From Halolamina litorea (GTDB taxonomy: Archaea > Halobacteriota > Halobacteria > Halobacteriales > Haloferacaceae): a stretch of 64,000 bases of DNA. This document shows, one piece after another, positions 7,643-56,534 of this stretch. Location of the stretch: assembly GCF_026616205.1 (NCBI RefSeq), contig NZ_JANHGR010000001.1, forward strand, positions 1,922,001 to 1,986,000. Reading direction: 5' to 3'. Made by a program: the position numbers and the translations under genes. The notes beneath the pieces were generated by a model. The model was not told where the DNA came from and ran no database searches. It was given only the letters and a program-made list of their open reading frames with translations. Numbering within the stretch: the first letter of the stretch is position 1; every line of letters starts with the position of its first letter.

Positions 7643-7676
7643 AACGCCCTTCCCGATCGGCCGAGAAATCCGGCGC

Positions 7677-9830: not shown

Positions 9831-9892
9831 TCGGCGACGGACGACCGCCGACGGCCGCGGGACTGAAGCCCCAGCCGCCCCTTCTTCGAACC

Positions 9893-12148: not shown

Positions 12149-12228
12149 TCGGCGCGCTCTCCCCGCGCCGCGTCGGCGCCGGCGGTCCAGAGGGAAAGAG
12201 ACGTGACCCCCGCGGCCCCAGACCGGGT

Positions 12229-42030: not shown

Positions 42031-42249
42031 TCAGTTCGTCGCGGCTTCGGTCGTCGCCGTCTCGGGCTCCTCCTCGACGCCGCTCCGGAGCTCCTGCTCC
42101 AGTTCCTCGCGGCCGCGCTTGAACTCACCCATCGCCTGTCCGCTGGATCGGGCGAGCTTCGGGAGCCGGTCGGCCCCGAACAGTAAGACGAGGACGAGCA
42201 GCACGATCATCAACTCAGGACCGCCGGGTAATGCAAACAGTGGAACCAT
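42031..42249 (-). CDS. tatA: Twin-arginine translocase subunit TatA
   Basis: This 72-residue protein forms the Tat export pore. It has one N-terminal membrane helix (GPELMIVLLVLVLLFG), the hinge with Phe-Gly, the amphipathic helix ADRLPKLARSSGQAMGEFKRGREELEQEL and a short acidic tail. Haloarchaea send most secreted proteins through Tat, and the gene lies about 3 kb upstream of a cluster of twin-arginine substrates. Several TatA paralogues per genome are usual, so this one need not be dedicated to the cluster. Confidence 0.94.
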   Translation of the reverse strand: MVPLFALPGGPELMIVLLVLVLLFGADRLPKLARSSGQAMGEFKRGREELEQELRSGVEEEPETATTEAATN

Positions 42250-42324
42250 GGGAGTCAGGACGCGCGCTCAGGTATTAAGCAGGCACCTGCTGTCGAGAAG
42301 TATGGACGCCCGGCCGGCACACGA

Positions 42325-42942
42325 TCACTCGTCGGGGTCGTAGCCGATGTCGTTCTCGCGGGCGTTGCGGTCGCGGCGCGTCGGTCGGTAGCGAATGTAC
42401 TCGGCCAGCATCACGATCGCGAACGCGAGCGAGACGACGCCGGCCAGTTGATACCCACCCAACATCGCGAACGGCGAGACGCCCAGCCAGGACAACACCG
42501 CGACCACGATCCCGGAGGCGGCGGCGATCGTACCGGTTCGGAGGGTCGTATCGGGCTCGATCGGACGCCAGAGGTAGGGACGGAACTCTTTGCCCCGCTC
42601 CGTCAGGACGACCGTACCGCGGTTGGCGTCGTAGTCGACGATCCCGTGTTTGGCGAGCTTGGGGATGTGACTCTGCCGGAGTGCGGTGTACGCGCGCTTG
42701 CGCTCCTTCGAACTGATGGTCGCGGGGTGTTTGTTCGTCTCCCACGCGGCGAGCTGGCGGGCCAGATCACCGACCGTCGAGGCCCCGTCGGCCTCGTACA
42801 ACGCGTGGAGCACGTTTCGGCGTCGGCGACTACTCAGAAGGGTGTACGCGACGTCACGCTCCAGCAGCGATTCGTCTTCGGTAGGGACAGCCTTCGACTC
42901 GTGCACGCTGACGCTGTTGGGTGTGGGTTGTGTGTCGTTCAT
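42325..42942 (-). CDS. HTH transcriptional regulator with two membrane helices (DUF7344-like)
   Basis: This 205-residue protein has a winged helix (about 25-120: AYTLLSSRRRRNVLHALYEADGASTVGDLARQLA, then LRQSHIPKLAKHGIVDYDANRGTVVLTERG) and two C-terminal membrane helices. The pattern SRRRRNVLHAL is typical of a haloarchaeal HTH family often annotated DUF7344. A related gene lies at 44254-44805, and the two bracket an unknown membrane protein and sit just before the TasA-like cluster, so they are candidate regulators. The ATG at 42942 gives MNDTQPTPNS. Confidence 0.8.
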   Translation of the reverse strand: MNDTQPTPNSVSVHESKAVPTEDESLLERDVAYTLLSSRRRRNVLHALYEADGASTVGDLARQLAAWETNKHPATISSKERKRAYTALRQSHIPKLAKHGIVDYDANRGTVVLTERGKEFRPYLWRPIEPDTTLRTGTIAAASGIVVAVLSWLGVSPFAMLGGYQLAGVVSLAFAIVMLAEYIRYRPTRRDRNARENDIGYDPDE

Positions 42943-43167
42943 CGTTTACCTCCGGGTAGTAGTCGCCGATAAGTCACCATCGCCGACAGGAGTACGGTAG
43001 CATTCGTGTATAATAAATCATTCGGCGAAAATGGCGTTTTTCGAAGATACAGGCCCTCTGTGGAGCATTTTGCCGCTTCCCGCTATTGGTTTTCGTGCGT
43101 GGTAGGCACATCCACGTCGGCCATTAGCCGGTTCCTGTTCAAGCCACCCCCCCACGTACGGGAGCCT

Positions 43168-44055
43168 ATGAGTAATACCCCACAACGCGAGCAGACCATC
43201 GAGACCCCCCGAAACGACCTGACTCACTCGACGCCGGCGTGGAACGGGATCAGCACGGCAGCCTCGCGGCTCCGCAACCCGGCGTACACCGGAGCGAACC
43301 GGTGTCTGCCCTGTACGGGGGTCAACGTCGGTCTGACAGTCGCGGCGGCGCTCGCCGTCGGGACGGTGTCCCGACCGGCCGGGGCGCTCGTCGGTGCCGG
43401 CGGGCTACTGGCGACGTGGCTCCGGGGCTACGTCGTCCCCGGAACGCCCGAACTCACCAAGCGCTATCTCCCTGACCGGGTACTTGCGTGGTTCGATAAG
43501 GCGCCCACAGGTGACGCACTCGGCGGGATCAACCCCGAAGCGTACCTCCGTGGGGCCGGCGTCGTCGTCGACCGGCCCGACGGGGATCTGGCGGTGAAGC
43601 CGTCGATCCACGCGGCACTCGCCGACCGTGTGGACACGTTCGAGACCGACGACGACCTCGCACGCGCGCTCGCGGAGGTCCTGTCTCTGAATCCCGACGA
43701 CGTGACCGTCGGCCCACAGGGTGTGGGCTACGCCGCTCGCGTGGGTGGACAGCCCGGCGGCACCTGGGAGTCACGACTCGCCCTGGCGACGGACCTCGCC
43801 GCCCACGACCTCTTCGCCGAGCGCGTCGGTGGCTGGCGGGCCCTCCCCGCCGACACGCGGGCCAGCCTCCTCGGGGCGTTCCGGCTGTCGCTGGATCGCT
43901 GTCCCGGCTGTGACGGCGTCGTCTCGCTCGGCAGCGACACGGCCGAGTCGTGCTGCCGGAGCTACGAGGTACTCGTCGCGGAGTGTGAGGCCTGCAACAG
44001 CCGCCTCTTCGAGGTGGACGCGTCGTTCGCCCCCGACGACAACGACGACGACTGA
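43168..44055 (+). CDS. Unknown membrane protein with C-terminal CxxC zinc motifs
   Basis: This 295-residue protein has an N-terminal CLPCTGVN motif, two hydrophobic stretches (about 53-90), then LTKRYLPDRVLAWFDKAP and a soluble domain. Near the C-terminus CPGCDGVVSLG, CCRSYEVL and CEACNSRLFEV suggest a zinc ribbon. I do not recognise a family. The ATG at 43168 follows an A/T-rich region (TGTATAATAAATC near 43008) unusual for this genome. It lies between two HTH membrane proteins and 1.1 kb upstream of the TasA-like genes. Confidence 0.68.
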   Translation: MSNTPQREQTIETPRNDLTHSTPAWNGISTAASRLRNPAYTGANRCLPCTGVNVGLTVAAALAVGTVSRPAGALVGAGGLLATWLRGYVVPGTPELTKRYLPDRVLAWFDKAPTGDALGGINPEAYLRGAGVVVDRPDGDLAVKPSIHAALADRVDTFETDDDLARALAEVLSLNPDDVTVGPQGVGYAARVGGQPGGTWESRLALATDLAAHDLFAERVGGWRALPADTRASLLGAFRLSLDRCPGCDGVVSLGSDTAESCCRSYEVLVAECEACNSRLFEVDASFAPDDNDDD

Positions 44056-44079
44056 TCGGTCCGACGGTCCCGGCTGACG

Positions 44080-44237
44080 CTGTTCGAGTGACGGCTGTCC
44101 CTTTTGACTGATACTGTTCGAGCGCGCGACCCTCCCAGTCCGGACTATGGCTGGACGTTGGGCCGTTCGAGCCTTCGACCGTTCGAGCGTGCAGACTGCC
44201 CCGTGGCTGGCGCTACTCGGATACGCGACTGTTCGAG
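44080..44237. repeat. Five copies of (C/T)GTTCGAG
   Basis: Copies lie at 44080-44088, 44114-44122, 44163-44171, 44179-44187 and 44229-44237. They fall in the spacer between the zinc membrane protein gene and the 3' end of the HTH gene. GTTCGA recurs in the inverted repeat before the second vWA protein. A regulatory array is possible. Confidence 0.65.
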
Positions 44238-44253
44238 AAAATCCGTCGGGCCG

Positions 44254-44805
44254 TCAGCCCTGCGTGGGTCGCCATTCGTCGTCGAGAGCGCCACGGCGTC
44301 GGGGCGAGCGCGTGCTGCGGGGGTAGAGCGTCCAAGTGTGGTACCCCGAGAGGGCCGCGTACGCCACCAGCGAGAGTACCGCCGGCACCAGCGGATCGAG
44401 GGCGGCCAGGAACGGGACGCCTGCAAGCACCGCGACCACGCTACAGAGTCCGACCAGCCCGACGAGGCGGTACTGCTCGCTCCAGCGCAGGCCCAACGGT
44501 CCGGTGTCGCGGATGCGTCGGACGACCCGCTTTGCGGCGGGAGTCGCACTGATCCCCGCGTCACCCGTCGTCACCAGCCCGTGGGTCTCGAGGGTGGGCA
44601 GGTGGGTCTGTCGGAGCGACGTAGCGACGCTCTCCCGAACCCCGCGGGGTGCGGGGTCGGTGCCGGCTTCGACTGCGGCCACGGCGTCGGCGATCTCGCC
44701 GGTCGTCCGCGGCGCGGCGACGTCCCAGAGGTACTCGAGCGCCACGCGACGGCGTTGGCAGCTCAGGACGCGATAGAACTCCGTATCTGATAATGTGTGG
44801 CTCAT
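44254..44805 (-). CDS. HTH transcriptional regulator with membrane helices, paralogue of 42325-42942
   Basis: This 183-residue protein has the same layout as the HTH gene 1.9 kb away: MSHTLSDTEFYRVLSCQRRRVALEYLWDV, a winged helix with SLRQTHLPTLETHGLV, then two membrane helices (about 125-165). It is divergent from the first TasA-like gene across a 376-base spacer that carries an inverted repeat, which makes it a good candidate regulator of that cluster. The start at 44805 was chosen for the MSHTLSD N-terminus; further upstream codons are not convincing. Confidence 0.78.
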   Translation of the reverse strand: MSHTLSDTEFYRVLSCQRRRVALEYLWDVAAPRTTGEIADAVAAVEAGTDPAPRGVRESVATSLRQTHLPTLETHGLVTTGDAGISATPAAKRVVRRIRDTGPLGLRWSEQYRLVGLVGLCSVVAVLAGVPFLAALDPLVPAVLSLVAYAALSGYHTWTLYPRSTRSPRRRGALDDEWRPTQG

Positions 44806-45181
44806 GGGTTCCGCGGCGTGGCGCCGCTTACTACGGGTAGGCACGGGGGGGACTAAGTCACGGACAGCCAGCCACCCGGCGAGGGGTGGGCTTCCACGCG
44901 GCACGCACTCCCTGTCGCCGAGCGCGGGAGCGGTACGGTCGCCATGTAGGTCTCCCAGACAGGGGTAGGGAGTGCGTGTCAAGCGGTACTAACTCCCATA
45001 CCGTCGGTCCTCCTCGGCGAACCGCCCGTTCCTCGGCGACGTGGCGGTCCATGAGTAAGTCACCCCCATTCCCTCAGTAGAGTGTCTCTCGGGGTCGAAC
45101 CCCGGGAACGCAGCGATCCCCCGGCTCCGGGCTCGGGTGGCGCACGTACCGCCAAAGACGAACAACCAACCCACGAAACCA
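44806..45181. other. 376-base intergenic region before the TasA-like cluster
   Basis: No gene is seen. It contains a 12-base inverted repeat (44902-44913 with 44967-44978), a CGGTACGG site at 44931-44938, and probably the promoters of both divergent genes. A CGGGG-TCGAA-CCCCG hairpin at 45090-45104 looks like a tRNA T-arm, but no tRNA fits around it. Confidence 0.65.
44902..44978. repeat. 12-base inverted repeat, 53-base spacer
   Basis: CACGCACTCCCT at 44902-44913 is the perfect reverse complement of 44967-44978. A second short pairing (CCTGTC at 44911-44916 with GACAGG at 44958-44963) extends it imperfectly. Confidence 0.8.
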
Positions 45182-46633
45182 ATGGACGACAACTCAAAAC
45201 TGTACAACACGACCCGCCGCCAGATCCTGGCCGGGATGGGCGCCGTCGGTCTCGCCTCCGCGGGGGCGGGCCTCGGCACGACAGCGTACTTCAGCGACAC
45301 CGAATCCTTCAGCGGCAACACCCTGCAGGCCGGTGAGCTCGACCTCAAGCTCGACTACAAGTCCACGTACATGGGCGGCGCGGGCCGTCTCGACCACGTG
45401 CAGGCGATGGGCTACCCCGACGCCGAGGACCTCGGGGAGGGACGCTACCTCCTCGGCCAGGCGCCGACGCCCGAAGACGAGATCGAGTGGGAGAACCTGG
45501 TCCAGAGCAACGAGTTCGACTTCTGTTCGCCCGAGGCCGACCAGTACCTCGTCAACGGTGACGAGATCCCGGTCTTCACCCTCGACGACATCAAGCCGGG
45601 CGACTCCGGCGAAGTGACGATCAGCCTCCACATCTGTGACAACCCCGCGTGGGTGAAGATGAACGGCTCGCTCTACGACAACCTCGAGAACGGCATGTCC
45701 GAGCCCGAGATGGAGGCCGACGACCTGAACCCCGGCGAAATCGGGGAACTGGCCGACGAGATCCAAGTCTGCGTCTGGTACGACGAGGACTGTGACAACG
45801 TCTACGAGGCCACCGGCACCGGCCAGCAGCAGGAACTGGAAGTCGCGCTCGTCAGCGACACCTCCGGCTCGATGAGCGGCGCGAACCTCACCGCCCTGAA
45901 GAACGCCGCCACCAGCTTCGTCGGCAACCTCTCCTCGCCCGACGAGGCCGCCGCGATCTCGTTCAGCAGCGGCACCTCGCTCGACCAGCAGCTGACGACG
46001 AACTACTCGGCGGTCCAGAACGCGATCAACAACTACACCGCAAGCGGCAGCACCAACGTCGCGGGCGGTATCTCCGTCGCGGAGAACGAACTCCTCAACG
46101 GGGCGAACGCGACTGCCGGCGCCTCGAAGGTCATGATCGTCCTGACCGACGGCTTCGAGAACATCGGCGACGCCCGCGATGCGGCCCAGCAGGCCAAGGA
46201 CGCCGGCATCCGGATCTTCGGTATCGGCCTGGGTACCAGCGTCGACACCGCGCTGGTGACCGACATCTCGTCGTCGCCCGGCGATGCCTTCTTCGCGCCC
46301 GACCCTGCGGACCTCGACACCGTCTACAGCGAGATCGCACAGGTCGTACTGGAGGGCGAACAGAAGATCGCCAGCGGCACGATGGCGGAAGTGTTCGAAC
46401 TCCTCGCCGAGGGGATCGACCTCGACGGCGACCGACAGGAGGAGGGTATCCAGTGTTACCCCGGTGCGACGACCCAGTGTATCGGCTTCGAGTGGGAACT
46501 CCCCGCGGAAGTCGGGAACCAGGTCCAGACCGACAGCCTCGCCTTCGACATCGGCTTCGAGGCCGAGCAGTGCCGCCACAACGAGGACGGCTTCGAGACT
46601 CCCACGGAAACCGAGACGGAGACCCCAGCCTGA
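45182..46633 (+). CDS. TasA/camelysin-like secreted protein with inserted vWA domain (first copy)
   Basis: This 483-residue protein begins with a Tat-like signal (R12-R13) ending in TAYFSDTE, the hallmark of SipW-processed TasA and camelysin precursors. The TasA-like beta domain starts at SFSGNTLQAGELDLKLDY, continues to about residue 215, and resumes at about 385 with DGDRQEEGIQCYPG, CIGFEWELP and VGNQVQTDSLAFD. Between them lies a vWA domain (about 218-385) with an apparently intact metal site: D226-S228-S230, T291 and D323. It ends in a Thr/Glu tail. A surface fibre or adhesin subunit is inferred. A signal peptidase gene lies in the same cluster. The ATG at 45182 gives MDDNSKLYNTTRRQ. Confidence 0.85.
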   Translation: MDDNSKLYNTTRRQILAGMGAVGLASAGAGLGTTAYFSDTESFSGNTLQAGELDLKLDYKSTYMGGAGRLDHVQAMGYPDAEDLGEGRYLLGQAPTPEDEIEWENLVQSNEFDFCSPEADQYLVNGDEIPVFTLDDIKPGDSGEVTISLHICDNPAWVKMNGSLYDNLENGMSEPEMEADDLNPGEIGELADEIQVCVWYDEDCDNVYEATGTGQQQELEVALVSDTSGSMSGANLTALKNAATSFVGNLSSPDEAAAISFSSGTSLDQQLTTNYSAVQNAINNYTASGSTNVAGGISVAENELLNGANATAGASKVMIVLTDGFENIGDARDAAQQAKDAGIRIFGIGLGTSVDTALVTDISSSPGDAFFAPDPADLDTVYSEIAQVVLEGEQKIASGTMAEVFELLAEGIDLDGDRQEEGIQCYPGATTQCIGFEWELPAEVGNQVQTDSLAFDIGFEAEQCRHNEDGFETPTETETETPA

Positions 46634-46685
46634 CCCCTCGCTGCTGACTCTACCTCTTCGGAGCCGGACCGGCCGGCAGCCGACG

Positions 46686-46757
46686 ACGGCGGTGCGACGC
46701 CGCCGTAGAGGTGTATCCCGCCGACGTGCGGGATCCGAACCGTTCGAAAAACGAACG
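46686..46757. promoter_or_regulatory. Hairpins and inverted repeat before the second vWA gene
   Basis: Hairpin 46686-46706 has a 7-base stem (ACGGCGG). Hairpin 46715-46734 has a 7-base stem (ATCCCGC). CGTTCG-AAAAA-CGAACG spans 46741-46757, ending 12 bases before the ATG. The first two may end transcription of the upstream gene; the third sits where an operator would act. Confidence 0.5.
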
Positions 46758-46769
46758 ACTATCCACACC

Positions 46770-48302
46770 ATGAGCCAAGACAAGAAACTCTACAACACGA
46801 CCCGCCGGCAGCTACTCGCCGGCATGGGTGCCGTCGGTCTCGCCTCCGCAGGGGCGGGCCTCGGCACGACCGCATACTTCAGCGACACCGAATCCTTCAG
46901 TGGCAACACCCTCCAGGCCGGGAGCCTCGACCTCAAGCTCGACTACAAGGCGAGCTACGACGGCCCCAACGGCATGGAACTGATCGGGCAGGCCCCGACC
47001 GAACAACAGCTGATCGACCAGTACGGCGAAGTGATCGAGGGGCCCCTGACCTGGGAGGAGCGCGCCGACCTCGGCTTCGCCTGTGACACCGAGGGCCTGA
47101 TCGACGGCGAGGCGATGCCCGTCTTCGATCTCGACGACGTGAAGCCCGGCGACTACGGCGAGGTGACGATGAGCTTCCACATCTGTGACAACCCGGCGCA
47201 CGTCTACTTCCGGGGCAACGTCTACGAGGACATGGAGAACGGGCTGACCGAGCCCGAAGCCGAGGTCGACTCGACGGCCGACGTGGGCGAACTCTCCGAC
47301 GTCATCGACGTGCGGATGTGGTACGACGAGAACTGCTCGAACACCTACGACGAACGCTCGGGCCGGGCCGACGTGCTGGTCGTCCAGGACATCTCCGGCT
47401 CGATGGAGTACGCCGGCAACGGCGGCGTCATCTCCGACGGCCAGGGTGGCTCGACCACGAAGCTCGAGGTGGCGAAGGACGCTATCGAGGCGTTCGGCGA
47501 CACCGTCTTCGCCGACCCGTCCGACGTGGCCGTCGGCCTGTTCACCTTCGGTAACGAGGACTACATCGGCGACGACACCCCCGCCGGCGACGACGTGGGT
47601 ATCGAACTCGCCCCCACGACCGACGAGTCCACCCTCGACACCCAGGCGGCCAACATCCAGGCCGCCGCCGAAGGTGTCGGCGGGACCGCACTCGGACTCG
47701 CAGTGCAGGATGCCAACGACTTCCTGCAGGCGAACCTCCGCAGCAACGCCCAGCCCGTGATGATCGTCCTGACCGACGGCGAGCAGTTCGACTCGAACAT
47801 CGACGAACTCGCCGCGGCCAACACCGCGAAGTCCGAGGGCACCCGGATCGTCATGATCGACGTCAACGACGTGGGCGACGGCGAGCCCCAGCTCCTCCGG
47901 GACATGGCCGGCTCGACCCCCACGACCGCCGGCGACGGCGACGGGACCGACTACTACCAGAGCGCCGACAGCGACTTCGCGGACGCCGCGGTGGACATCT
48001 TCGACTCCATCCTCCAGACCATCGTGGTCGCGGAGGGCGTGGTGTTCGAGGGGACCCTCGCGGAGTTCCGCGACGCCTTCGCCGACGGCGTGGCCCTCGA
48101 CCCCGCGCCGCTGCTGGGCTCCTCGGCGACCAACGAGATCTGCTTCACCCCCGGGACCCACTGTGTGGCGTTCGAGTGGTCGATCGACCCCGAGATCGGC
48201 AACGAGATCCAGACCGACTCGGTCAGCTTCGACTTCGACTTCGCGGCTGTCCAGTGCCGCCACAACGCGGAGCCGGTCAACCCCTTCGCGTCGTCGGCCT
48301 GA
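46770..48302 (+). CDS. TasA/camelysin-like secreted protein with inserted vWA domain (second copy)
   Basis: This 510-residue paralogue of the preceding protein has a nearly identical signal (R12-R13, TAYFSDTE, SFSGNTLQAGSLDLKLDY), so the pair arose by duplication. The beta domain has HICDNPAHVYFRGNVYEDMENG. The vWA insert (about 200-415) has metal-site residues D207-S209-S211, T306 and D336. The closing TasA-like part (about 420-500) shows FEGTLAEFRDAFADGVALD, CFTPGTHCVAFEW and FAAVQCRHN. The vWA domain diverges far more than the fold around it, suggesting different ligands. Its own upstream elements suggest separate regulation. Confidence 0.85.
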   Translation: MSQDKKLYNTTRRQLLAGMGAVGLASAGAGLGTTAYFSDTESFSGNTLQAGSLDLKLDYKASYDGPNGMELIGQAPTEQQLIDQYGEVIEGPLTWEERADLGFACDTEGLIDGEAMPVFDLDDVKPGDYGEVTMSFHICDNPAHVYFRGNVYEDMENGLTEPEAEVDSTADVGELSDVIDVRMWYDENCSNTYDERSGRADVLVVQDISGSMEYAGNGGVISDGQGGSTTKLEVAKDAIEAFGDTVFADPSDVAVGLFTFGNEDYIGDDTPAGDDVGIELAPTTDESTLDTQAANIQAAAEGVGGTALGLAVQDANDFLQANLRSNAQPVMIVLTDGEQFDSNIDELAAANTAKSEGTRIVMIDVNDVGDGEPQLLRDMAGSTPTTAGDGDGTDYYQSADSDFADAAVDIFDSILQTIVVAEGVVFEGTLAEFRDAFADGVALDPAPLLGSSATNEICFTPGTHCVAFEWSIDPEIGNEIQTDSVSFDFDFAAVQCRHNAEPVNPFASSA

Positions 48303-48352
48303 TCTCCCGCGACCCCCCCGTTTCCTTTCGTCCGGTCCGTTTCCTCGCTTCC

Positions 48353-48366
48353 GGAGCGATCGCTCC
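48353..48366. repeat. 14-base perfect palindrome
   Basis: GGAGCGATCGCTCC lies 50 bases after the second vWA gene. Role unknown. Confidence 0.75.
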
Positions 48367-48503
48367 CGTGAAACCCGAAAAGCGACGACGGAGCGGCCGG
48401 GCAGGGGCTCCGTACCCCCCGGAGTGGGGTGCCGTACCGTTCCCGCGCGTGGCCGCACGCGGTCCGTACTAACGTCCCCCCGATTCCACTGTTCTTCTAA
48501 CGT

Positions 48504-48515
48504 GCCCGTACGGGC
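48504..48515. promoter_or_regulatory. 12-base palindrome before the third TasA-like gene
   Basis: GCCCGTACGGGC ends 13 bases before the ATG at 48529. CCGTACCG lies further up near 48433. Both are GTAC-centred, like the repeats at 52517-52551, and may be operator sites. Confidence 0.5.
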
Positions 48516-48528
48516 GCGAGACACAACA

Positions 48529-49341
48529 ATGACCATGACCCACCTAACGCGGCGAGGCGTCCTCACGGCGCTCGGGGGCGTTGGGCTCGGCACCGTCGCC
48601 GGGTCCCGCCTCCTCGCCGGCGAGCGCCCGCCGTTCACACGCTATACGCTCGCACAGACCGCGGACGGGGACGGCTCCCTCCGCGTCTCGTGGTACGAGC
48701 GCTACAACGGGAGCACCGTCGAGGCGACGGGCGGCACCAACGAGAGTGCCGTCGATACGCTCGACCCCGAGACACAGCCCACCTACGTCGACGACGCCGC
48801 CGTTGCGGTGATCTCGTTCGACAACGTCCTGCCGGACGACAGCGGGTCGCTCGTCGTCGGCCTCGAGGCCGTCGACGCGGACCTGAACGTCTGGTTCCGG
48901 CCGCGGATCACCGCCGACGCCGAGAACGGGCAGAACGAGCCCGAACTGCTGGCGGAAGGCCCCGATACCGACGGCGACGGCGAACTCGACGTCCTGAGTG
49001 ACGTGAGCTACTGGCACGACAACGGCGTCGTATTCGGCGACTGCAACGGCCGGCAGGGGCTGTTCGAGCCCCAGTTGGTCACCGCCGACGGCAGCGCCGC
49101 CGCCGGCTCGCTCCGTGACGTGACCGACGCCTTCGGTGACGGCGTCCGCCTCCCCTTCGACGGCGGGGACGGCTGCCCCGACGCGCTCCCGGCCGGCGGG
49201 AACCGCTGTGTCGGCTTCAACTGGGCGCTCCCCGAATGGGTGGGCAACGAAGTCCAGAGCGACAGGCTGTCGTTCGAACTGGAGTTCGTGGCCGTCGCCT
49301 GTGGCGACGACCAGAACCCCTTCCTGGAGGTGGCGGAGTGA
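48529..49341 (+). CDS. TasA-like secreted protein without vWA domain
   Basis: This 270-residue protein starts with a Tat-like signal (HLTRRGVLTALGGVGLGTVAG) and keeps the cluster's shared blocks: DLNVWFRPRITADAENGQNEPEL, ADGSAAAGSLRDVTDAFGDGVRLPFDGG, CVGFNWALPEWVGNEVQSDRLSFELEFVAVACG. The SipW-type A-Y-F-S-D-T-E motif is lost. It has no vWA insert. The next gene overlaps its stop (GTGA), so the two are coupled. It could be a minor subunit or cap of the proposed fibre. Confidence 0.75.
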   Translation: MTMTHLTRRGVLTALGGVGLGTVAGSRLLAGERPPFTRYTLAQTADGDGSLRVSWYERYNGSTVEATGGTNESAVDTLDPETQPTYVDDAAVAVISFDNVLPDDSGSLVVGLEAVDADLNVWFRPRITADAENGQNEPELLAEGPDTDGDGELDVLSDVSYWHDNGVVFGDCNGRQGLFEPQLVTADGSAAAGSLRDVTDAFGDGVRLPFDGGDGCPDALPAGGNRCVGFNWALPEWVGNEVQSDRLSFELEFVAVACGDDQNPFLEVAE

Positions 49342-50489
49342 CGCCCATCAGCCGCCGCCAACTGCTGGTGGGGATCACCGCCGCCGGTGCCGCCGGGACG
49401 ATCTCGGGTGTCGGCACCGCGGCGCTGCTGACCGACCGGGAGACGCTGGCCGCGGAGATCCGTGGCGGACGCGTCGAGCTTCGCGTCGACGCCGGGGACG
49501 GCTCGACCGACGGCCCGGTCGAACTCCCCTTCCCCACGCTCGAAGCCGGTGACACCGGGTCGGTCGAGTTCGCGTTCGACGTGCCCGACGAGGATGGGGT
49601 CAACCCCGTCTACCTCTGGCTCCGCGTCGGCTGTGCCGGCGCCAGCGGGCTGGGGGATTTCCTCCGGGTCACGCTCTCGCGGCGCGACGACGCGGGCGAG
49701 GTACTGTTCGAGGGGACCCTCGCCGAGATGTTCGACGCACTCGGCGACGGCATCCGACTCGACCCGAGTAGCGGCGCCGGCGACCAGGGCTGTTTCCAGC
49801 CCGGTTCGACGGTCCCGCTCTCGCTCGCGTACGAACTCTCGCCGGCCTACATCGGCTCGGACGCGACCAGCCTGCTGGTCGAGGGCGTCGCGGTGCAGTG
49901 CCGTGGCGTCGACGCCAGCCAGCGCCCGCCCGAGTTCGACGCACCCCTCGGTGCGGCCGACTGCACCACGGTCGAGTGCCCGTGCTGCACGCTGGTCGGG
50001 AAGTACGAGAGCACCCTCACCGCGGGGGTTCTCCCCTTCGACGAGGGGAGCGACGACTACCGCCTGTCCGTCTCGGACATCGAGACCAACGACGACGGCG
50101 AGGCGATGGCGGCCCGATTCCGGGTCGTCCTGGCCGACGACCCGACGACGGAGGTCGAAGTCTGCCGCGTCCTGATCAAGTCCGGCCGCGGGCCGGACGC
50201 GAGCACGGACCTGTTCGTCTACGAGGACGAGGAGGTCGACGGCGTGATCGGTACCGACCGGTACGCCATCAGCCACGTCACCGTCGGGATCTGCACCCCC
50301 ACGGTCGACGGCGAGTGCCCGCCCGACCTGGTGACAGAACAGCGTCCCCAGGGCGGGAACGGTAACAACGGCAATAACGGCAATAACGGCAACAGCGGCA
50401 ACAACGGCAACAGCGGCAACAACGGCAACAGCGGCAACAACGGCAACAGCGGCAACAGCGGCAACACCGTCGCAGGAGGCGACCGATGA
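49338..50489 (+). CDS. TasA-like secreted protein with Cys-rich second domain and Asn/Gly/Ser tail
   Basis: This 383-residue protein starts with a GTG overlapping the previous stop. It has a Tat-like signal (ISRRQLLVGITAAG) ending in ALLTDRE, a TasA-like domain (about 35-195, with FEGTLAEMFDALGDGIRLD, CFQPGSTVPLSLAYEL and VAVQCRG), a second beta-rich domain introduced by CTTVECPCCTLVGKYE (about 212-330), and a C-terminal run of Asn, Gly and Ser. The ATG of the signal peptidase gene overlaps its stop by four bases. A cell-wall-facing or flexible-linker role is inferred. Confidence 0.78.
   Translation: MTPISRRQLLVGITAAGAAGTISGVGTAALLTDRETLAAEIRGGRVELRVDAGDGSTDGPVELPFPTLEAGDTGSVEFAFDVPDEDGVNPVYLWLRVGCAGASGLGDFLRVTLSRRDDAGEVLFEGTLAEMFDALGDGIRLDPSSGAGDQGCFQPGSTVPLSLAYELSPAYIGSDATSLLVEGVAVQCRGVDASQRPPEFDAPLGAADCTTVECPCCTLVGKYESTLTAGVLPFDEGSDDYRLSVSDIETNDDGEAMAARFRVVLADDPTTEVEVCRVLIKSGRGPDASTDLFVYEDEEVDGVIGTDRYAISHVTVGICTPTVDGECPPDLVTEQRPQGGNGNNGNNGNNGNSGNNGNSGNNGNSGNNGNSGNSGNTVAGGDR
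50353..50467 (+). repeat. Asn-Gly-Asn-Ser coding repeat
   Basis: Tandem units of 9-18 bases (GGCAACAACGGCAACAGC type) encode the flexible C-terminal tail of the preceding protein. Copy number is likely to vary by slippage. Confidence 0.85.
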
Positions 50490-51565
50490 GCCGGTTCGGC
50501 GAGGGCTCGGCCCGGCACGTCGTCGGCTTCATCGTCCTCCTGCTGGTGATCGCCCCGTTCGCGGCCTACGCCGCGCCGGCGCTGGTCGGTGCCGACGAGA
50601 GCTACATCGTCCTCACCGGAAGCATGCGCCCCGGGATCGACCCGGGTGACGTGGTGTTCGTCAGCGCGACCTCGGCGGCCTCGATCGGCGTCGACGACGT
50701 GATCACGTACACTCGCCCGGGCAGCAACACGCCGACGACCCACCGCGTGGTGGAAGTGGTCGAGCGTGACGGCGACCGGCTGTTCCGCACGCAGGGGGAT
50801 GCCAACGAGGACCCCGACAGTGCGCTCATCGCACCCGAACAGGTGGTCGGCGTGGTGACCCTGACGATCCCGTTCATCGGGACCGTCATCGGGCTTGCCG
50901 ACAGCCAGTACGGCTTCCTCGCGCTCGTGGTGCTGCCGTTCGGCCTCCTCGTGCTCGACTTGGGCTACTCGGCCGTGAGTCGCAGAGTGGGCCGACCCGG
51001 CGGCGCGTCCGAGGAGGACGCCGACGTTCCGGTGGTGTACGACCCGGTCCGAGCGGCCGAAGCGTACTACGACGCCGCCGAGCGTCGCCTCAGCGAGGCC
51101 GAACGGACGGCCACGCCGGGGGTCAGCGCTCGGGACATGAGCGCCTCGATGCTGCTGGCGGCGGGGCTGGCGATCTACGCCGGCTGGAACGCCTACTGGC
51201 AGTTCACCAGCTTCGGCGCCCCGCGCGCGGAGACGATGTCCGTGCTCTCGGGCGCGCTGGTCTGTCTAGCGTTCCTCGGCTACCTACGCGTGACGAACGG
51301 CGGGTCGGACGAACCGGCCCCCGCCACGGCACCCGGAACGCCCGGCGTGGCCGAGGTCGCGCCCGTGGGAGCCGCCCCGAGCGTAGCCCGACCGCAGGCA
51401 GCCCAGCACCCCGCAGGGGTGGAGGCGGCCCACGGCGTGGCTCCCGGTGCCACCGCGGCGCCCGAACCTCGCGTGGAGACCAACGGCCACGGCTACCCCG
51501 TGTGGTACGCCGACGGCGGCTACGAACAGGCCTCGGAGGCCAGGGAGGGCGCTGATGCGCAGTAA
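50486..51565 (+). CDS. Signal peptidase, SipW/Sec11 type, with C-terminal extension
   Basis: This 359-residue membrane peptidase has the catalytic Ser46 (IVLTGSMRPGIDPGD), His86 (TTHRVVEVVERDGD) and Asp pair near D105/D111 (TQGDANEDPD) of the Ser-His-Asp archaeal, SipW and Sec11 class. Helices lie at about 11-31 and 122-165. After a polar stretch come two further helices (about 213-270) and a Pro/Ala-rich tail, unusual for a signal peptidase. Its position inside the cluster and the SipW-type signals of its neighbours suggest it processes them, as SipW processes TasA. The start overlaps the previous stop (ATGA). Confidence 0.88.
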   Translation: MSRFGEGSARHVVGFIVLLLVIAPFAAYAAPALVGADESYIVLTGSMRPGIDPGDVVFVSATSAASIGVDDVITYTRPGSNTPTTHRVVEVVERDGDRLFRTQGDANEDPDSALIAPEQVVGVVTLTIPFIGTVIGLADSQYGFLALVVLPFGLLVLDLGYSAVSRRVGRPGGASEEDADVPVVYDPVRAAEAYYDAAERRLSEAERTATPGVSARDMSASMLLAAGLAIYAGWNAYWQFTSFGAPRAETMSVLSGALVCLAFLGYLRVTNGGSDEPAPATAPGTPGVAEVAPVGAAPSVARPQAAQHPAGVEAAHGVAPGATAAPEPRVETNGHGYPVWYADGGYEQASEAREGADAQ

Positions 51566-52487
51566 GGCGATCAGCGCGATGGTGGTGGCGGCGTTCGTCA
51601 TCACCGCGGCTGCGGCGGGGGGCGTCACGGTCGCCCTCCTCTCGGACGGCGAGACGGCGATCGTCCCGGTGGCCGCCACCGGGGCGGCGCCGACGCCGAG
51701 CGACGACGACGACACCGAGCCGCTCACGCTCCTCGGAGCGGGTGGGAACGGCTCGACGCTCGACGCGTCTGCGGCCGGCAACGAGACCCTCGGTAACGAA
51801 ACCGCGGGCAACGAGACCGTCGGCAACGAAACGATCGGTAACGAAACCGCCGGCAACGAAACGATCGGTGACGGCGGCAACGAAACCGTCGGCAACGAGA
51901 CTGCAGCCGACGGCGGCAACGAAACTTCCGGCGACACCGACGGCACCGTCTCGATCGGTAACGAGACCGCCGGCGACGGCGGCAACGAAACCGCTGGCGA
52001 CGGCGGCAATGTGACCGTCGGCAACGAAACGATCGGTGACGGCGGCAACGAAACCGTCGGCAACGAGACTGCAGCCGACGGCGGCAACGAAACTTCCGGC
52101 GACACCGACGGCACCGTCTCGATCGGTAACGAGACCGCCGGCGACGGCGGCAACGAAACCACGACCGGTGGCAACGAGACCGGTGAACCGGACGACGAGC
52201 AGCTCCCGTCCGGCAACGAATCGTCCGGCAACGACACCGCGTCGGGGACGAACGAGACGGTGACCAACGGGACCACGCCCGAGGGGACCGCACCCGCGAC
52301 CGGTGAGTCCACCGGAGACGGTGACGACGCCGGCGAGGGTGCCGGCGACGACGGCCCGGACGCGACGGCCTCGAACGACGACGAATCGCTCGACGATTCC
52401 CCCGAGGAGCCGTCCGGTGATGCCGACGACGAGACCGAACCCTCCGGCGACGACGCCGAGGGCGACGACGACCCGTCAGACCCCTGA
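51555..52487 (+). CDS. Asn-Glu-Thr repeat protein, heavily N-glycosylation-prone, exported
   Basis: This 310-residue protein has an N-terminal hydrophobic segment (SAMVVAAFVITAAAAGGVTVALLSDGE) whose A-L-L-S-D-G-E end resembles the SipW-type cleavage region of its neighbours. The rest is low complexity: 24 N-X-S/T sequons, 19 of them Asn-Glu-Thr, separated by Gly/Asp/Ala, then an acidic Ser/Asp/Glu tail. No C-terminal anchor is seen. Archaea glycosylate such sequons, so the mature product could be a mucin-like coat or fibre-coating protein. The gene overlaps the signal peptidase gene by 11 bases. Confidence 0.78.
   Translation: MRSKAISAMVVAAFVITAAAAGGVTVALLSDGETAIVPVAATGAAPTPSDDDDTEPLTLLGAGGNGSTLDASAAGNETLGNETAGNETVGNETIGNETAGNETIGDGGNETVGNETAADGGNETSGDTDGTVSIGNETAGDGGNETAGDGGNVTVGNETIGDGGNETVGNETAADGGNETSGDTDGTVSIGNETAGDGGNETTTGGNETGEPDDEQLPSGNESSGNDTASGTNETVTNGTTPEGTAPATGESTGDGDDAGEGAGDDGPDATASNDDESLDDSPEEPSGDADDETEPSGDDAEGDDDPSDP
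51853..51992 (+). repeat. 140-base direct repeat, copy 1
   Basis: Identical to 52021-52160 (offset 168 bases, in frame), within the Asn-Glu-Thr gene. The perfect match indicates recent duplication. Confidence 0.9.
52021..52160 (+). repeat. 140-base direct repeat, copy 2
   Basis: Identical to 51853-51992. The 28 bases between the copies differ, coding AGDGGNVTV-type residues. Confidence 0.9.
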
Positions 52488-52494
52488 GCGGCCG

Positions 52495-52499
52495 TTTTT
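52495..52499 (+). terminator. T5 run after the Asn-Glu-Thr gene
   Basis: GGCCGTTTTTC starts a few bases after the stop at 52487, fitting an archaeal poly-T terminator at the end of the 48529-52487 transcript. Confidence 0.4.
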
Positions 52500-52516
52500 C
52501 AGCGTTCTCTCGGTGA

Positions 52517-52551
52517 CCGTACCGTTCGGTACGAACCCCGTACCGTTCGGT
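52517..52551. promoter_or_regulatory. Paired palindromic repeats before the last TasA-like gene
   Basis: CCGTACCGTTCGGT occurs at 52517-52530 and 52538-52551, 21 bases apart (two helical turns). The first copy is part of the palindrome CGTACC-GTTC-like 52518-52533 (GTACCG-TT-CGGTAC core). This looks like a tandem operator about 100 bases before the ATG. Confidence 0.55.
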
Positions 52552-52649
52552 CATCCGGGGGAAACCGGCCGTTCGTCCGGAGGAAGCCCCGGTTCGCCGA
52601 GTGCGTGGCTGTTCGTACATAGGACCCCTGCCAGCCATGGGGAGGATGT

Positions 52650-54071
52650 ATGAGCGACAAACAACTCATCCCCACAACCCGACGCAACGTACTCATCGGA
52701 CTCGGCAGCATCGGCATCGCCTCCGCGGGGGCAGGCCTCGGTACGACAGCCTACTTCAGCGACACCGAATCGTTCAGCGGAAACGTCCTCGAAGCCGGGC
52801 AGTTCGACCTCCGTGTGCGCTACGTCGGCCAGTACAACGAGTTCGGCGAACCCATGTTCGGGCAGGCATCCGGCATCATCGACGGCGTGAACTCCACGGT
52901 CGGCGGGACCACCGTCGGCGAGGCGGACTTCGGCTTCACCGTCGACGACCTCAAGCCCGGCGACACCGGGGTCGGTGAGTTCTGCTTCCAGATCATCGAC
53001 AACCCCGGCTACGTCTGGATGTCGGGTGAAGTGACCCAGAACGACGAGAACGGCTACACCGAGCCGGAGCCGACGACGGCAGCCGGGGGCGACATCAACA
53101 CCCCCGGCGACGCCGACGGCGAGGGTGAACTGCTCGACGCGCTGCAGGTGTACGTCTCCTACTCCGACGGGGCCTACAGCGACACCAGCAGCGGATCGCC
53201 CCCGACGGTCCTACCCGGGACCGCACGCGGTGACGTGTTCAGCGGGACGCTCCGTGAGTTCTTCATGGGCGAGTACCTCATCGACGCCGACCCCACGACC
53301 GCCGTGGTCGACCCCGTTCCCGGCACCGACGACGAGGCGGAGTTCGCCGAGCCGTGCCTGCTGTTCGAGTTCGAGGTGCCCACCACCGCGGGCAACGAAC
53401 TCCAGACCGACGTGCTGGGCTTCGACATCACGTTCAACGCGGTGCAGGCCCGCCACAACGTCGTCCGAACCGCCGAAACCGGGACCGGCTTCGTCGACGT
53501 GAGCGAGGCGACCAACACCGGCGGCGGCTACGGTGACGACGGCGAGGACTTCGCGTCGAAGACCATCACCGGCCGCGCCCGCTACGGTGACAGCGGCGGC
53601 GCGGCGACCTACGAACTGGCGACCGGGACGTCCACCCCCGGCGGCGACCAGCAACAGATCGACTGGACGCCGTTCCTCGGGACCGCGACGGACTTCACGT
53701 TCACCTACGACGCCAACGCGGCCACCGCGACGTTCGCCCTCGCAAACGGCGCCGTCTCCTCGACGGTGACTGGCGTGAGCGCACCCGCGGGCCGGATCGG
53801 CCTGCAGGGCAAGGCCGACGAGTCCACCGTGGCCATCGACAACGTTGCGCTGACCGCCGACGGCACCGCAGTGACCGTGGTCGGTCCCGACGGCGTCACG
53901 GCGACCAACGACGACGACGGCGCGGGCCGCGACATCAGCTACCTCGTGTTGAACACCAGCGCCGCCGACCTCGCGAACGGCTTCGAGATCACGGGCGACG
54001 TGACCATCGACGCACAGGGCGACTTCGCGGGCGCGATGGAGGGCATCGCGTTCGACATCGTCGTCGAGTGA
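52650..54071 (+). CDS. TasA-like secreted protein with possible second beta-rich C-terminal domain
   Basis: This 473-residue protein opens with a Tat-like signal (TTRRNVLIGLGSIGIASAGAGLG) and TAYFSDTESFSGNVLEAGQFDLRVRY, very like the vWA proteins. The TasA-like domain runs to about residue 270 (IIDNPGYVWMSGEVTQNDENG, VFSGTLREFFMGEYLIDAD, CLLFEFEVPTTAGNELQTDVLGFDITFNAVQARHN). After a Gly linker a second beta-rich domain (about 295-473) starts TITGRARYGDSGGAATYEL; it resembles repeat-type choice-of-anchor secreted domains, but that label is tentative. A GGGGAGGA ribosome-binding site precedes the ATG. Confidence 0.8.
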   Translation: MSDKQLIPTTRRNVLIGLGSIGIASAGAGLGTTAYFSDTESFSGNVLEAGQFDLRVRYVGQYNEFGEPMFGQASGIIDGVNSTVGGTTVGEADFGFTVDDLKPGDTGVGEFCFQIIDNPGYVWMSGEVTQNDENGYTEPEPTTAAGGDINTPGDADGEGELLDALQVYVSYSDGAYSDTSSGSPPTVLPGTARGDVFSGTLREFFMGEYLIDADPTTAVVDPVPGTDDEAEFAEPCLLFEFEVPTTAGNELQTDVLGFDITFNAVQARHNVVRTAETGTGFVDVSEATNTGGGYGDDGEDFASKTITGRARYGDSGGAATYELATGTSTPGGDQQQIDWTPFLGTATDFTFTYDANAATATFALANGAVSSTVTGVSAPAGRIGLQGKADESTVAIDNVALTADGTAVTVVGPDGVTATNDDDGAGRDISYLVLNTSAADLANGFEITGDVTIDAQGDFAGAMEGIAFDIVVE

Positions 54072-54192: not shown

Positions 54193-55194
54193 TCAGGGCG
54201 TCGGCGCCGCTTTCTGCAGTGCCGTTTCGGCGACGTTCCCCCCGTAGTCCGCCGACCGCGAGAGCGAGTCCACGATCAGCCCGAGCAGTTGGGCCCGCGC
54301 GGGGTCGAAGTCACGCAACAGTTCGTCGATCTCGCGGGCGCTGCCGTCGATGTCCTGGACCTGCTCGCGGGCGCGGTTGGCCAGCCGGATCGCCTCGTCG
54401 TTCTCGTCGGCGAACAGCGCGGCCATCGCGTTGTCGATGACCTCGGCGGCGGCCTCGTGAAGCTCCCGGAGGGAGTCGACGACCTCCTCGGGCGGGGCCG
54501 TCTCGATCTCCAAGGAGAGGTGAGCGATCTTGGTCGCGTGGTCCGCGACGCGCTCCAACTGCCGGGCGCTGGAGTGGTAGTCGAAACAGACCTCGCGGGG
54601 GAGCCCCAACTCCTCGGCGGCGGTGGGGCTCCGCAGCGTCGCCCGGAAGATACGGGAGACGACCATGTAGAGCCGGTCCACGTCGTCGTCGCGCTGGATC
54701 ACGTCCTCCGCGAGGTCGGCGTCGTCGGTGGCGAGCGCCTCGACGGCGTCGCCGAGCATCGAGGAGGCGATCAGGCGCATCCGGTCGACGGCGTTGTGGA
54801 TCGACAGCTCCGAGGAGTCGAGGAGGTCACGCACGACCACGCGGTCGCCGGTCTCCTCCAGTACCTCCAGGCCGACGAGGCTCTGGGTCGCCTGCCGGAT
54901 CGTCCGACGCTGGTCGGTCGTGATCCGGTCGGCCTGCAGCGAGATCACGTCGAACCCGGAGACGTACATCGTCATCACCGCGCGACGGAGCTCCTCGCCC
55001 TGGAGGCCACTGACCTCGAGACTCCCCTCGGTTCGCTCCTCGTCGGAGACGGGGGTGAGGACCAGTGAGTCTTCCTCTGGATGGAACACGACGCGGCTGC
55101 CCGCTTCCACGTCGTTGTCCGTCGCCCAGTCCTTGGGGATGGAGACCGTGAACGTCGATCCGCCGGTCACCTGCACCTTCCGGGTCTCGGCCAT
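54193..55194 (-). CDS. AbrB-type DNA-binding and PhoU-domain regulator
   Basis: This 333-residue protein has an N-terminal AbrB/SpoVT-like swapped-hairpin domain (about 1-50: RKVQVTGGSTFTVSIPKDWA, GSRVVFHPEEDSLVLTP) and two PhoU-like three-helix units (about 110-330). Haloarchaea use such fusions as regulators of phosphate genes. It is divergent from pstS, so it probably binds the 283-base spacer and controls the pst operon and itself. The start at 55194 gives MAETRKVQV; an upstream in-frame ATG at 55248 lies past the TATA-like box. Confidence 0.88.
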   Translation of the reverse strand: MAETRKVQVTGGSTFTVSIPKDWATDNDVEAGSRVVFHPEEDSLVLTPVSDEERTEGSLEVSGLQGEELRRAVMTMYVSGFDVISLQADRITTDQRRTIRQATQSLVGLEVLEETGDRVVVRDLLDSSELSIHNAVDRMRLIASSMLGDAVEALATDDADLAEDVIQRDDDVDRLYMVVSRIFRATLRSPTAAEELGLPREVCFDYHSSARQLERVADHATKIAHLSLEIETAPPEEVVDSLRELHEAAAEVIDNAMAALFADENDEAIRLANRAREQVQDIDGSAREIDELLRDFDPARAQLLGLIVDSLSRSADYGGNVAETALQKAAPTP

Positions 55195-55233
55195 GCGAGT
55201 ACGTAGTGAAGGCGTCGGTGATAAGCGTTCCTC

Positions 55234-55245
55234 AAAACTATATAT
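55234..55245 (-). promoter_or_regulatory. TATA box of the AbrB-PhoU gene
   Basis: On the minus strand the sequence reads ATATATAGTTTT, 40-51 bases before the ATG at 55194. The same bases, TATATAGTTTT, occur at 55426-55436 for pstS. Confidence 0.6.
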
Positions 55246-55425
55246 CAACTGAAGAACTACCCCTACAGCTCAGGTTCGATGCGGCCCCTACGGACTGCCC
55301 ACGGGCCGTAATGATTCACCACCCAGCACCCAGAACGCCATTAAGTAACCTCTAGAGCCGTATTTGGTCGGATTTCTTGGTTCGCGCTCGCTGCCGATAG
55401 TGAGAACAACCCGCATATTGTGATC

Positions 55426-55436
55426 TATATAGTTTT
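55426..55436 (+). promoter_or_regulatory. TATA box of the pst operon
   Basis: TATATAGTTTT lies 42-52 bases before the pstS ATG. It mirrors the minus-strand element at 55234-55245, suggesting one regulator recognises both promoters. Confidence 0.6.
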
Positions 55437-55477
55437 CATAGTAGTGTATTTACCCCTGAGTGCGCTCCGGATAGGTA

Positions 55478-56473
55478 ATGGCACGACAGACCGACGGTGT
55501 ATCCCGGCGATCGTTCCTGGCTGGCGTCGCAACCACTGGTGCGGTAGCTGCCGCCGGCTGTACGAGCAACACCGGTACCGAGGGCGAGGGCGGGCTCTCG
55601 GGGGACATCCGGATCACCGGGAGTTCGACCGTGTTCCCGCTCGCGTCGGCGTTACGCGAGGAGTTCATCGGCGAGCACGAGAACGTGGACATCTCGCTCA
55701 GCTCCGACGGGAGCGGTGGCGGCTTCACGAACTACTTCTGTACGGGCGATTCGGACTTCAACAACGCCTCGCGACCCATCGCGCCCGAGGAGGAGAGTCA
55801 GTGTTCGGACAACGACGTGACGCCGGTCGAGCTCAAGGTCGCGACCGACGCCCTGACCGTCGTCGTCAACCCCGACGCCGACTGGTTCGGCGCCGACGGC
55901 GAGGAGTGTGTGACCGTCGAGGAACTCAAGCAGATCTGGTCGGCCGAGAGCCAGCCGACGACCTGGAGCGACGTGAACTCCGACTGGCCCGACGAGGAGA
56001 TCCAGCTCTACGGCCCGACCGACGCCTCCGGGACGTTCGACTACTTCAACGAGGTCATCATCGGCGAGGAGACCGACCACCGGACGGACTACCAGTCGAC
56101 CGAGCAGGACAACCAGATCATCAACGGCGTCGCCGACAGCGAGTACGCGATCGGCTACATGGGCTTTGCCTACTACTCCCAGAGCGGTGAGGGTGTCACC
56201 GCACTCGGGATCGACAACGGTGACGGCTGCGTGAAGCCGACGCTCGAAACCGCACGGAGCGGCGAGTACCAGCCGCTCTCGCGGCCGCTGTTCACCTACC
56301 CCTCCCAGTCGTCGCTGGGCGAGGAGCACGTCGCCGAGTTCGCCCGCTACTGGATGGAACAGAGCACCAGCGAGTCGCTCGTCGCCGACGAGGTCGGCTA
56401 CGTCCCCAACACGGAGGCGGACCGCGACGAGATGCTCGACCGGCTCGAGTCCGCCATCGAAGCGGCCGAGTAA
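55478..56473 (+). CDS. pstS: Phosphate ABC transporter substrate-binding lipoprotein PstS
   Basis: PstS captures phosphate outside the cell and hands it to PstC/PstA. The 331-residue protein has a twin-arginine motif (R10-R11, SRRSFLAG) and a lipobox with Cys28 (AAAGCTSN). The phosphate-binding segments are ITGSSTVFPLASAL, SSDGSGGGFTNYFCTGDSDFNNASRP and YGPTDASGTFDYF. The length is normal. It is the first gene of pstSCAB-phoU; a T6 run follows its stop, so PstS may be made in excess over the membrane parts. Confidence 0.95.
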   Translation: MARQTDGVSRRSFLAGVATTGAVAAAGCTSNTGTEGEGGLSGDIRITGSSTVFPLASALREEFIGEHENVDISLSSDGSGGGFTNYFCTGDSDFNNASRPIAPEEESQCSDNDVTPVELKVATDALTVVVNPDADWFGADGEECVTVEELKQIWSAESQPTTWSDVNSDWPDEEIQLYGPTDASGTFDYFNEVIIGEETDHRTDYQSTEQDNQIINGVADSEYAIGYMGFAYYSQSGEGVTALGIDNGDGCVKPTLETARSGEYQPLSRPLFTYPSQSSLGEEHVAEFARYWMEQSTSESLVADEVGYVPNTEADRDEMLDRLESAIEAAE

Positions 56474-56501
56474 CTCCGGCCGTGAGCGACACAACGAAGC
56501 G

Positions 56502-56507
56502 TTTTTT
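56502..56507 (+). terminator. T6 run between pstS and pstC
   Basis: GCGTTTTTTCGCG lies 29 bases after the pstS stop and 28 bases before the pstC ATG. It could reduce read-through into pstC, or be a secondary promoter box. Confidence 0.45.
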
Positions 56508-56534
56508 CGCGGATACGCCGATGGGTGATTCAGC

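Follow-up and report, generated by a model that had tools for sequence, protein, structure and literature searches.

What does the gene cassette at 42.3-54.1 kb of the window build outside the cell, and how would its secreted proteins work together? The window is a 64,000-nucleotide stretch of the Halolamina litorea chromosome (NCBI RefSeq assembly GCF_026616205.1, contig NZ_JANHGR010000001.1, positions 1,922,001 to 1,986,000). Our reading is that its product is probably a TasA-type fibre outside the cell, which also serves as a scaffold for the display of adhesins.

Gene content and conservation of the cassette

Five subunit-type open reading frames on the forward strand, with a GC3 of 0.91-0.93 and acidic products, were all found where the original prediction had placed them: T1 (45182-46633), T2 (46770-48302), P3 (48529-49341), P4 (49338-50489) and T3 (52650-54071). 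A signal peptidase, SP (50486-51565), and a stalk protein, P6 (51555-52487), are encoded on the same strand between P4 and T3. On the reverse strand lie two winged-helix membrane regulators of the DUF7344 family, at 42325-42942 (PF24035, E 9e-28) and, divergent from the subunit genes, at 44254-44805 (PF24035, E 1.2e-19), together with a TatA-family translocase subunit at 42031-42249 (TIGR01411, 64.2 bits, above cut-off). TatA and two helix-turn-helix membrane regulators had been predicted upstream of the subunits and all three are present; as TatA adjoins the cassette, on either strand, in just 9 of 68 relatives, it is an occasional neighbour and probably not a core member, and a general core role for it was rejected. 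Between both regulators, on the forward strand, an open reading frame without any Pfam match (43168-44055) encodes a membrane protein with a CxxC zinc-ribbon-like C-terminus; with phmmer relatives in 42/68 loci, it is a conserved cassette member that had previously been overlooked.

The arrangement has direct support from synteny and from gene overlaps. Across full-length loci the usual member order is REG-REG / T-T-P3-P4-SP-P6, with a divergent DUF7344 regulator gene in 53/53 and the signal peptidase in 49/53, and the P4, SP and P6 reading frames usually overlap. Conservation of the neighbourhood had been set beforehand as a check on the locus, and the same gene order is indeed retained in many genera. 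The vWA and mucin-like proteins that had been counted as members are both conserved components; the locus is not unique, as two additional cassettes of like kind, both missed by the original prediction, bring the total in this genome to three.

All genes of the 42.0-54.1 kb region are accounted for, and none encodes a type IV pilus or archaellum secretion ATPase or platform protein, so a type IV pilus reading was rejected. A search of 42.0-55.5 kb for RNA elements gave zero Rfam matches at gathering scores.

A signal peptidase within the locus

SP is a SipW/archaeal-type signal peptidase I with a C-terminal extension; the model for archaeal signal peptidases, TIGR02228, gives it 91.2 bits (cut-off 51.85 bits). 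All 62 of 62 relatives retain the catalytic Ser, His and Asp, confirming the earlier claim that the cassette encodes its own Ser-His-Asp signal peptidase. On the Bacillus SipW model NF046067 it reaches 92.7 bits, below the cut-off of 190, which makes it a SipW-like relative rather than the Bacillus equivalog. A housekeeping role for SP was considered and is less likely, because a separate, Sec11-like signal peptidase gene exists in the genome (C2:63883).

T subunits and their cargo

The GTTAYFSDTE motif is present in T1, T2 and T3, which score 34.0, 32.9 and 27.6 bits on TIGR04088 (cognate_SipW) against a curated cut-off of 19 bits, in agreement with the original assignment of A-Y-F-S-D-T-E to three proteins. 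T2 also matches PF12389 (28.1 bits, above cut-off), and both models match Bacillus subtilis proteins in the control genomes. The kinship of T1-T3 to TasA is drawn from sequence family. The twin Arg of the T signals is invariant, and the segment that follows the signal is nearly so: among 211 T proteins, D4 was found in 211, E6 in 209, N11 in 208, F8 in 206 and F2 in 199, with an aromatic F at P2' in 199/211. According to PMC10269814, SipW processes substrates with an aromatic P2' residue, which LepB cleaves poorly. The donor strand of B. subtilis TasA comprises residues 28-38, with F29, I32 and F39 taking part in contacts, and deletion of 28-38 impairs fibres and biofilms (PMC9674648).

Two T subunits carry a vWA domain as an insert. 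In T1 (VWA, E 8e-25, residues 221-382; 45842-46327, forward strand) the domain, with MIDAS motifs DTSGS, T and LTDG, is inserted in a TasA loop; in T2 (VWA, E 3.8e-12, residues 201-383; 47370-47918, forward strand) the motifs are DISGS, T and LTDG. The predicted structure of T3 ends in a concanavalin A-like jelly-roll domain (residues 299-473; 53544-54068, forward strand) that matches PDB 1dq2 with Z 14.5 and rmsd 2.5 over 157 aa. This lectin-like domain had gone unremarked in the original prediction. The TasA portion of the T3 model is of low confidence, and lectins fill the list of structural matches of T3 (Foldseek/VIA-align). Across relatives, 32 T proteins are inserted and 32 compact, and the inserted ones have short C-tails. 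The T subunits thus look like display scaffolds, bearing either a vWA domain in one TasA loop or a C-terminal concanavalin-like domain, with insertion sites and lectin fold directly supported.

Such large inserts, vWA and others, could hinder a regular fibre, and the occurrence of several distinct T proteins in one locus points to mixed roles; both observations would suit secreted or S-layer-associated adhesins acting as monomers or small complexes, which keep the TasA fold and the SipW signal only for export and folding. We regard this as improbable, as the post-cleavage segment, the donor strand of TasA, is among the most conserved stretches and would not be needed by a monomer, and as the loop position takes inserts while leaving that segment intact.

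P3, P4 and the TasA fold

The remaining two subunit-type proteins had been described as having degenerate or lost motifs, and this is what they show. P3 is TasA-like and has a Tat signal, and it lacks the SipW motif; its N-terminus, [FY][ST]xYT[YL]A[QA], is conserved, and its homologues precede P4/SP in most loci. P4, a divergent protein with a GTG start and an N/G repeat tail, has the degenerate motif AALLTDRE, and its stop overlaps the SP start.

As the most divergent member tested, P4 carried the check on a TasA/camelysin fold that had been set beforehand, and its best matches are TasA. When its predicted fold (pLDDT 76.7) was compared with the PDB by VIA-align, the top three matches were three TasA entries: the fibre 8aur (Z 8.9, rmsd 2.9 over 138 aa, a Z only 1.9 above the next unrelated entry), 5of2 (Z 8.2) and 5of1 (Z 8.1). 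Foldseek alone did not place TasA among its best 50 matches, and it was the second look with VIA-align that brought TasA out. When the PDB was searched by sequence, using profiles A2 and A6 as well as two paralogues, TasA did not come up; the matches were due to chance, apart from a weak one to a pilin (9p0a) through the signal peptide. Taken from these best matches, P4 is predicted to have the TasA beta-sandwich fold.

The Pfam name of PF12389, "Camelysin metallo-endopeptidase" (M73), together with the matches to this family, would make the TasA-like proteins secreted proteases. This reading was rejected as highly improbable: the PF12389 matches in the proteins of the window span only the N-terminal signal and strand region of the model (e.g. 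11-50 of 196), no HExxH is visible in any of the five proteins, and the P4 fold matches a structural protein.

The stalk protein P6

P6, whose start overlaps the SP stop, has a non-Tat SipW-like signal, a short strand-like N-terminus and a disordered acidic tail; it contains 24 N-x-S/T sequons, where shuffling gives 5 on average. The SipW-like signal of this mucin-like protein had not been remarked before. A stalk ORF of this type occurs in 54/62 SP loci and overlaps or abuts SP in 53. The strand segment resembles the TasA donor strand and is conserved as a family; against a donor-strand profile the best window falls exactly at the expected place in 26 of 51 proteins, and 21/51 exceed 95% of shuffles, a moderate signal, with the window's own P6 diverged in this segment (ALLSDGETAIVPVA). 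That a similar segment is retained on a disordered tail is a further point against TasA-fold monomers.

The signal, the donor-strand-like segment and the disorder suggest that P6 may be a TapA-like starter or cap. In B. subtilis, TapA residues 44-57 are sufficient for biofilm (PMC10151520). The S/T/N/D/E-rich tail of P6 matches no Pfam or NCBIfam domain, hence no complete V-set Ig domain as in TapA, so P6 would be at most TapA-like in function. An antisense ORF at 51284-52312, which mirrors the P6 repeats and is not acidic, was set aside.

Proposed mechanism and significance

In the fibre that we propose, T1-T3 would be exported through the Tat pathway and then cut at GTxA|xF by the SP of the cassette. 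The N-terminal segment freed by this cut, in which hydrophobic residues are conserved (F, F, L/I), would be taken up as donor strand into the beta-sandwich of the following subunit; both this polymerisation and a biofilm function are inferred from homology. The translationally coupled P4-SP-P6 block would provide processing and minor subunits. P6, whose disordered and probably glycosylated stalk bears a donor-strand-like N-terminus, would start or cap the fibre and tether it, as TapA does in Bacillus. Expression would be under the control of the DUF7344 regulators.

Cargo would sit in one of two alternative places on a T subunit, as a loop insert (vWA with MIDAS) or as a C-terminal lectin-like domain, and on this basis the fibre would attach to surfaces or other cells by way of their sugars and metal-coordinated ligands. 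The same cargo, and the fact that one genome holds several cassettes that differ in cargo, which suggests contact specificity, would suit a fibre used mainly for cell-cell contact (mating or aggregation) or for binding extracellular polysaccharide instead of as a biofilm scaffold. This refinement is compatible with the fibre model, and we consider it rather unlikely as the main function, as haloarchaeal biofilms also require adhesion.

A more tentative extension, which we hold as possible, is that haloarchaea make modular donor-strand fibres, several per cell and with different cargo, whose parts separate the two halves of the polymerisation joint. T and P4 would combine donor strand and body. 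P6 would supply just the donor strand, carried on a disordered stalk that is glycosylated, and act as starter or cap, and P3 would be a body whose N-terminus differs, perhaps placed at an end of the fibre. The TasA body would then be a standard socket into which various adhesins fit interchangeably (vWA, lectin-like, beta-helix and others).

In the literature examined, the subunit that polymerises into TasA fibres or archaeal bundling pili is a plain beta-sandwich. If the proposed fibre is real, a widely conserved haloarchaeal version with adhesin cargo would link biofilm scaffold and adhesin in one protein, and halophile biology would gain a defined and testable system of adhesion that includes a regulator and a peptidase of its own. 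As Tat-signalled subunits are probably folded before export, it would also pose the problem of how a subunit that is already folded could open up to exchange donor strands. In addition, a stalk protein pared down to a donor-strand-like segment would offer a natural and minimal way of testing the model of TapA as initiator.

Comparison with known systems

No description of this haloarchaeal cassette was found in the literature searched, which was mainly that outside subscription journals, and within it the cassette appears to be a previously undescribed, Tat-signalled and modular version of the TasA/archaeal bundling-pilus type. The bundling pili of Pyrobaculum calidifontis (AbpA) are reported to be a TasA-related archaeal donor-strand fibre, as cited in PMC9674648 and PMC10151520; AbpA chains were absent from the PDB match lists of the profile A2/A6 sequence searches and of the P4 and T3 structure comparisons. 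The threads of Sulfolobus acidocaldarius (Saci_0406, 7pnb), an archaeal donor-strand-complemented beta-sandwich filament, match P4 with Z 6.6, more weakly than TasA does, and the excerpts on them mention neither a SipW/Tat link nor cargo. The NCBIfam family TIGR04088 (SipW-dependent-type signal peptide) includes T1, T2 and T3 by its cut-off; its name covers the signal only and takes in neither cassette nor cargo nor stalk.

With the B. subtilis tapA-sipW-tasA and B. cereus sipW-calY systems, the cassette has in common the TasA fold (P4), a SipW-type peptidase in the locus, and the GTxA-xF-x-D signal and N-terminal segment. An accessory gene that overlaps its neighbour beside the peptidase is likewise shared, the overlaps within P4-SP-P6 resembling that between tapA and sipW in Bacillus. 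Unlike the Bacillus systems, the cassette has a Tat instead of a Sec-type signal and several different T subunits per locus, carries vWA and lectin-like cargo, DUF7344 regulators and the extra members P3 and P4, and includes in P6 a disordered stalk, rich in sequons, that bears a donor-like segment.

Gene content of the cassette

All five open reading frames that the original prediction had assigned to a secreted fibre locus in the window (contig C1, positions 1922001-1986000 of a 3.02 Mb genome) proved to be real, and the SipW-type signal claimed for three of them was recovered. The TasA-like subunits T1 (45182-46633), T2 (46770-48302) and T3 (52650-54071) each scored above the curated cut-off of TIGR04088, a model of SipW-dependent signals, and T1 and T2 also contain a vWA domain (E 8e-25 and 3.8e-12, respectively); the divergent TasA-like protein P4 (49338-50489, GTG start) has a degenerate SipW motif, and P3 (48529-49341), likewise divergent, has none. 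The cluster does encode its own signal peptidase, as had been proposed: SP (50486-51565) cleared the cut-off of the archaeal signal peptidase model by a wide margin; against the Bacillus SipW model it reached 92.7 bits, under that model's own cut-off of 190. P6 (51555-52487) is a mucin-like open reading frame. Among named relatives, those nearest to the vWA proteins come from two Halolamina pelagica records, at 86% and 82% identity, which places the source organism in or close to Halolamina. Directly after the cassette lies a phosphate-uptake region (54193-59110), in which the minus strand encodes a PhoU-like protein and the plus strand one PstS-like protein and two Pst permease-like proteins.

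Conservation of the neighborhood

The neighborhood, whose conservation had been named as a check on the prediction, is retained across many genera. Of 293 genomes in the order, 108 hold a T2 match, and these represent 49 of 87 genera. In a set of 20 loci inspected, all contained a DUF7344 membrane regulator, several TasA-like genes and SP. A scan with one genome per species yielded 68 named loci in Halolamina, Halorubrum, Haloarchaeobius, Halobellus, Natronomonas, Halorientalis, Halobacterium, Natronorubrum, Haloglomus, Halosimplex and others. Among 53 loci with full flanks, the window included, every locus had a divergent DUF7344 gene (two such genes in 35) and 49 had SP, the commonest order being REG REG / T T T P3 P4 SP, where REG is the regulator and T any TasA-like subunit; because loci were picked by likeness to the vWA subunits, these counts describe the cassette and not all TasA-like genes. 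P4 and SP overlap or abut in 47 of 51 loci, as do SP and P6 in 53 of 54 detected cases, and the catalytic Ser, His and Asp of SP are invariant (62/62). An open reading frame between the two regulators (43168-44055), unmentioned in the prediction, recurs in 42 of the 68 loci. The predicted TatA neighbor also recurs in relatives, but in only nine of the 68, on either strand. Three related loci (L097, L134, L135) have T genes and additional clusters of regulators, but SP was not found in the stretch covered; these are possibly cassettes that use a peptidase borrowed from another.

Related loci in the same genome

Archaeal-type signal peptidases above cut-off occur at four places in the genome, three of them within TasA-like cassettes, which together hold four of the six strong DUF7344 genes. 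One further cassette (C1:1342000-1353000, 3398-10024 within the stretch L023) opens with DUF7344 and three TasA-like genes and continues with SP, a coupled stalk gene rich in Thr and Pro, and another TasA-like gene; it keeps the same order and adjoins a TFB-like gene. In the other (C1:955000-967000, 2944-9327 within L024), the stalk, SP and DUF7344 run opposite to three TasA-like genes, and its first subunit aligns with T3 across the lectin-like C-terminal extension. A single TasA-like gene lies at 400 kb (L025). The fourth peptidase (L026, C1:51000-55000; 62 bits) sits beside a large secreted DUF1102-like-looking protein, possibly as a separate signal peptidase/filament pair, and a Sec11-like peptidase outside the cassettes (C2:63883) resembles the housekeeping enzyme of haloarchaea. 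Two more DUF7344 regulators (9108-9665 and 12038-12655 within L079, C3:86000-105900) lie either side of a glmS-like gene and adjoin phosphosugar mutase-like and glycosyltransferase-like genes, a layout hinting that surface sugar and fibre control are coordinated.

Cargo domains and fold of the subunits

Two conserved TasA motifs lie 75-120 residues apart in 32 of 64 representative T proteins and 200-379 residues apart in the other 32. C-terminal tails are short in the inserted forms, and most compact forms carry C-terminal extensions of ~150-340 residues. A vWA match was present in 19 of the 64, and other matches were to choice-of-anchor W, beta-helix/NosD and, once, an SslE-like metalloprotease profile; all three MIDAS metal-site motifs occur in 60 of 71 vWA members. 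With this layout and variety of domains, the TasA body looks to be a general socket into which adhesive domains can be fitted.

A model of P4 built from an alignment of 32 sequences (mean pLDDT 76.7) had as its top PDB match in VIA-align TasA in its fibre form (8aur; Z 8.9, rmsd 2.9 over 138 residues), followed by monomeric TasA (5of2, Z 8.2; 5of1, Z 8.1). The entry ranked after these three scored Z 7.0; 7pnb, the Sulfolobus thread, had Z 6.6. The match is modest in Z, yet three TasA entries head the list, the fibre form first. The T3 model was weaker overall (67.2), with residues 299-473 matching concanavalin A-like lectins at Z 14.5. The solved 'Pilin' PDB 9p0a has an N-terminus (RR...GLGTI...GTGAFSS) similar to the cassette signals and may be another Tat-signalled haloarchaeal filament.

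The stalk protein P6

P6 relatives have a hydrophobic signal without a twin arginine, a SipW motif resembling GG-x-T-[LV]-A-[VL]-[LF]-[ST]-D, V and F residues conserved at a set distance downstream of it and, beyond these, a disordered tail in which S, T, N, D and E abound; the window's P6 contains 24 N-x-S/T sequons versus 5 expected. The corresponding post-signal segment of TasA is the donor strand (PMC9674648), and biofilm support by TapA requires little beyond a segment of that kind (PMC10151520). A TasA-derived profile was placed best at exactly this segment in 26 of 51 P6 proteins and scored above 95% of shuffles in 21 of 51, the window's own P6 falling outside the good matches. A TapA-like role for P6 is a good hypothesis.

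Proposed mechanism and comparison with known systems

Gene content and its conservation, the peptidase active site, the folds of P4 and the T3 C-terminal domain and the insertion sites are observed, whereas all the dynamic steps of the simplest account of the cassette, which is quite probably correct, are inferred. The T subunits would leave the cell through Tat, undergo SipW-type signal cleavage and then polymerise by donor strand, with P6 and P4 initiating or anchoring the fibre and vWA and lectin-like cargo providing adhesion. No published description of the haloarchaeal cassette, its cargo-bearing subunits or the coupled stalk was found in a search that was thin on subscription journals. 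Archaeal TasA homologues are already known (PMC10151520).
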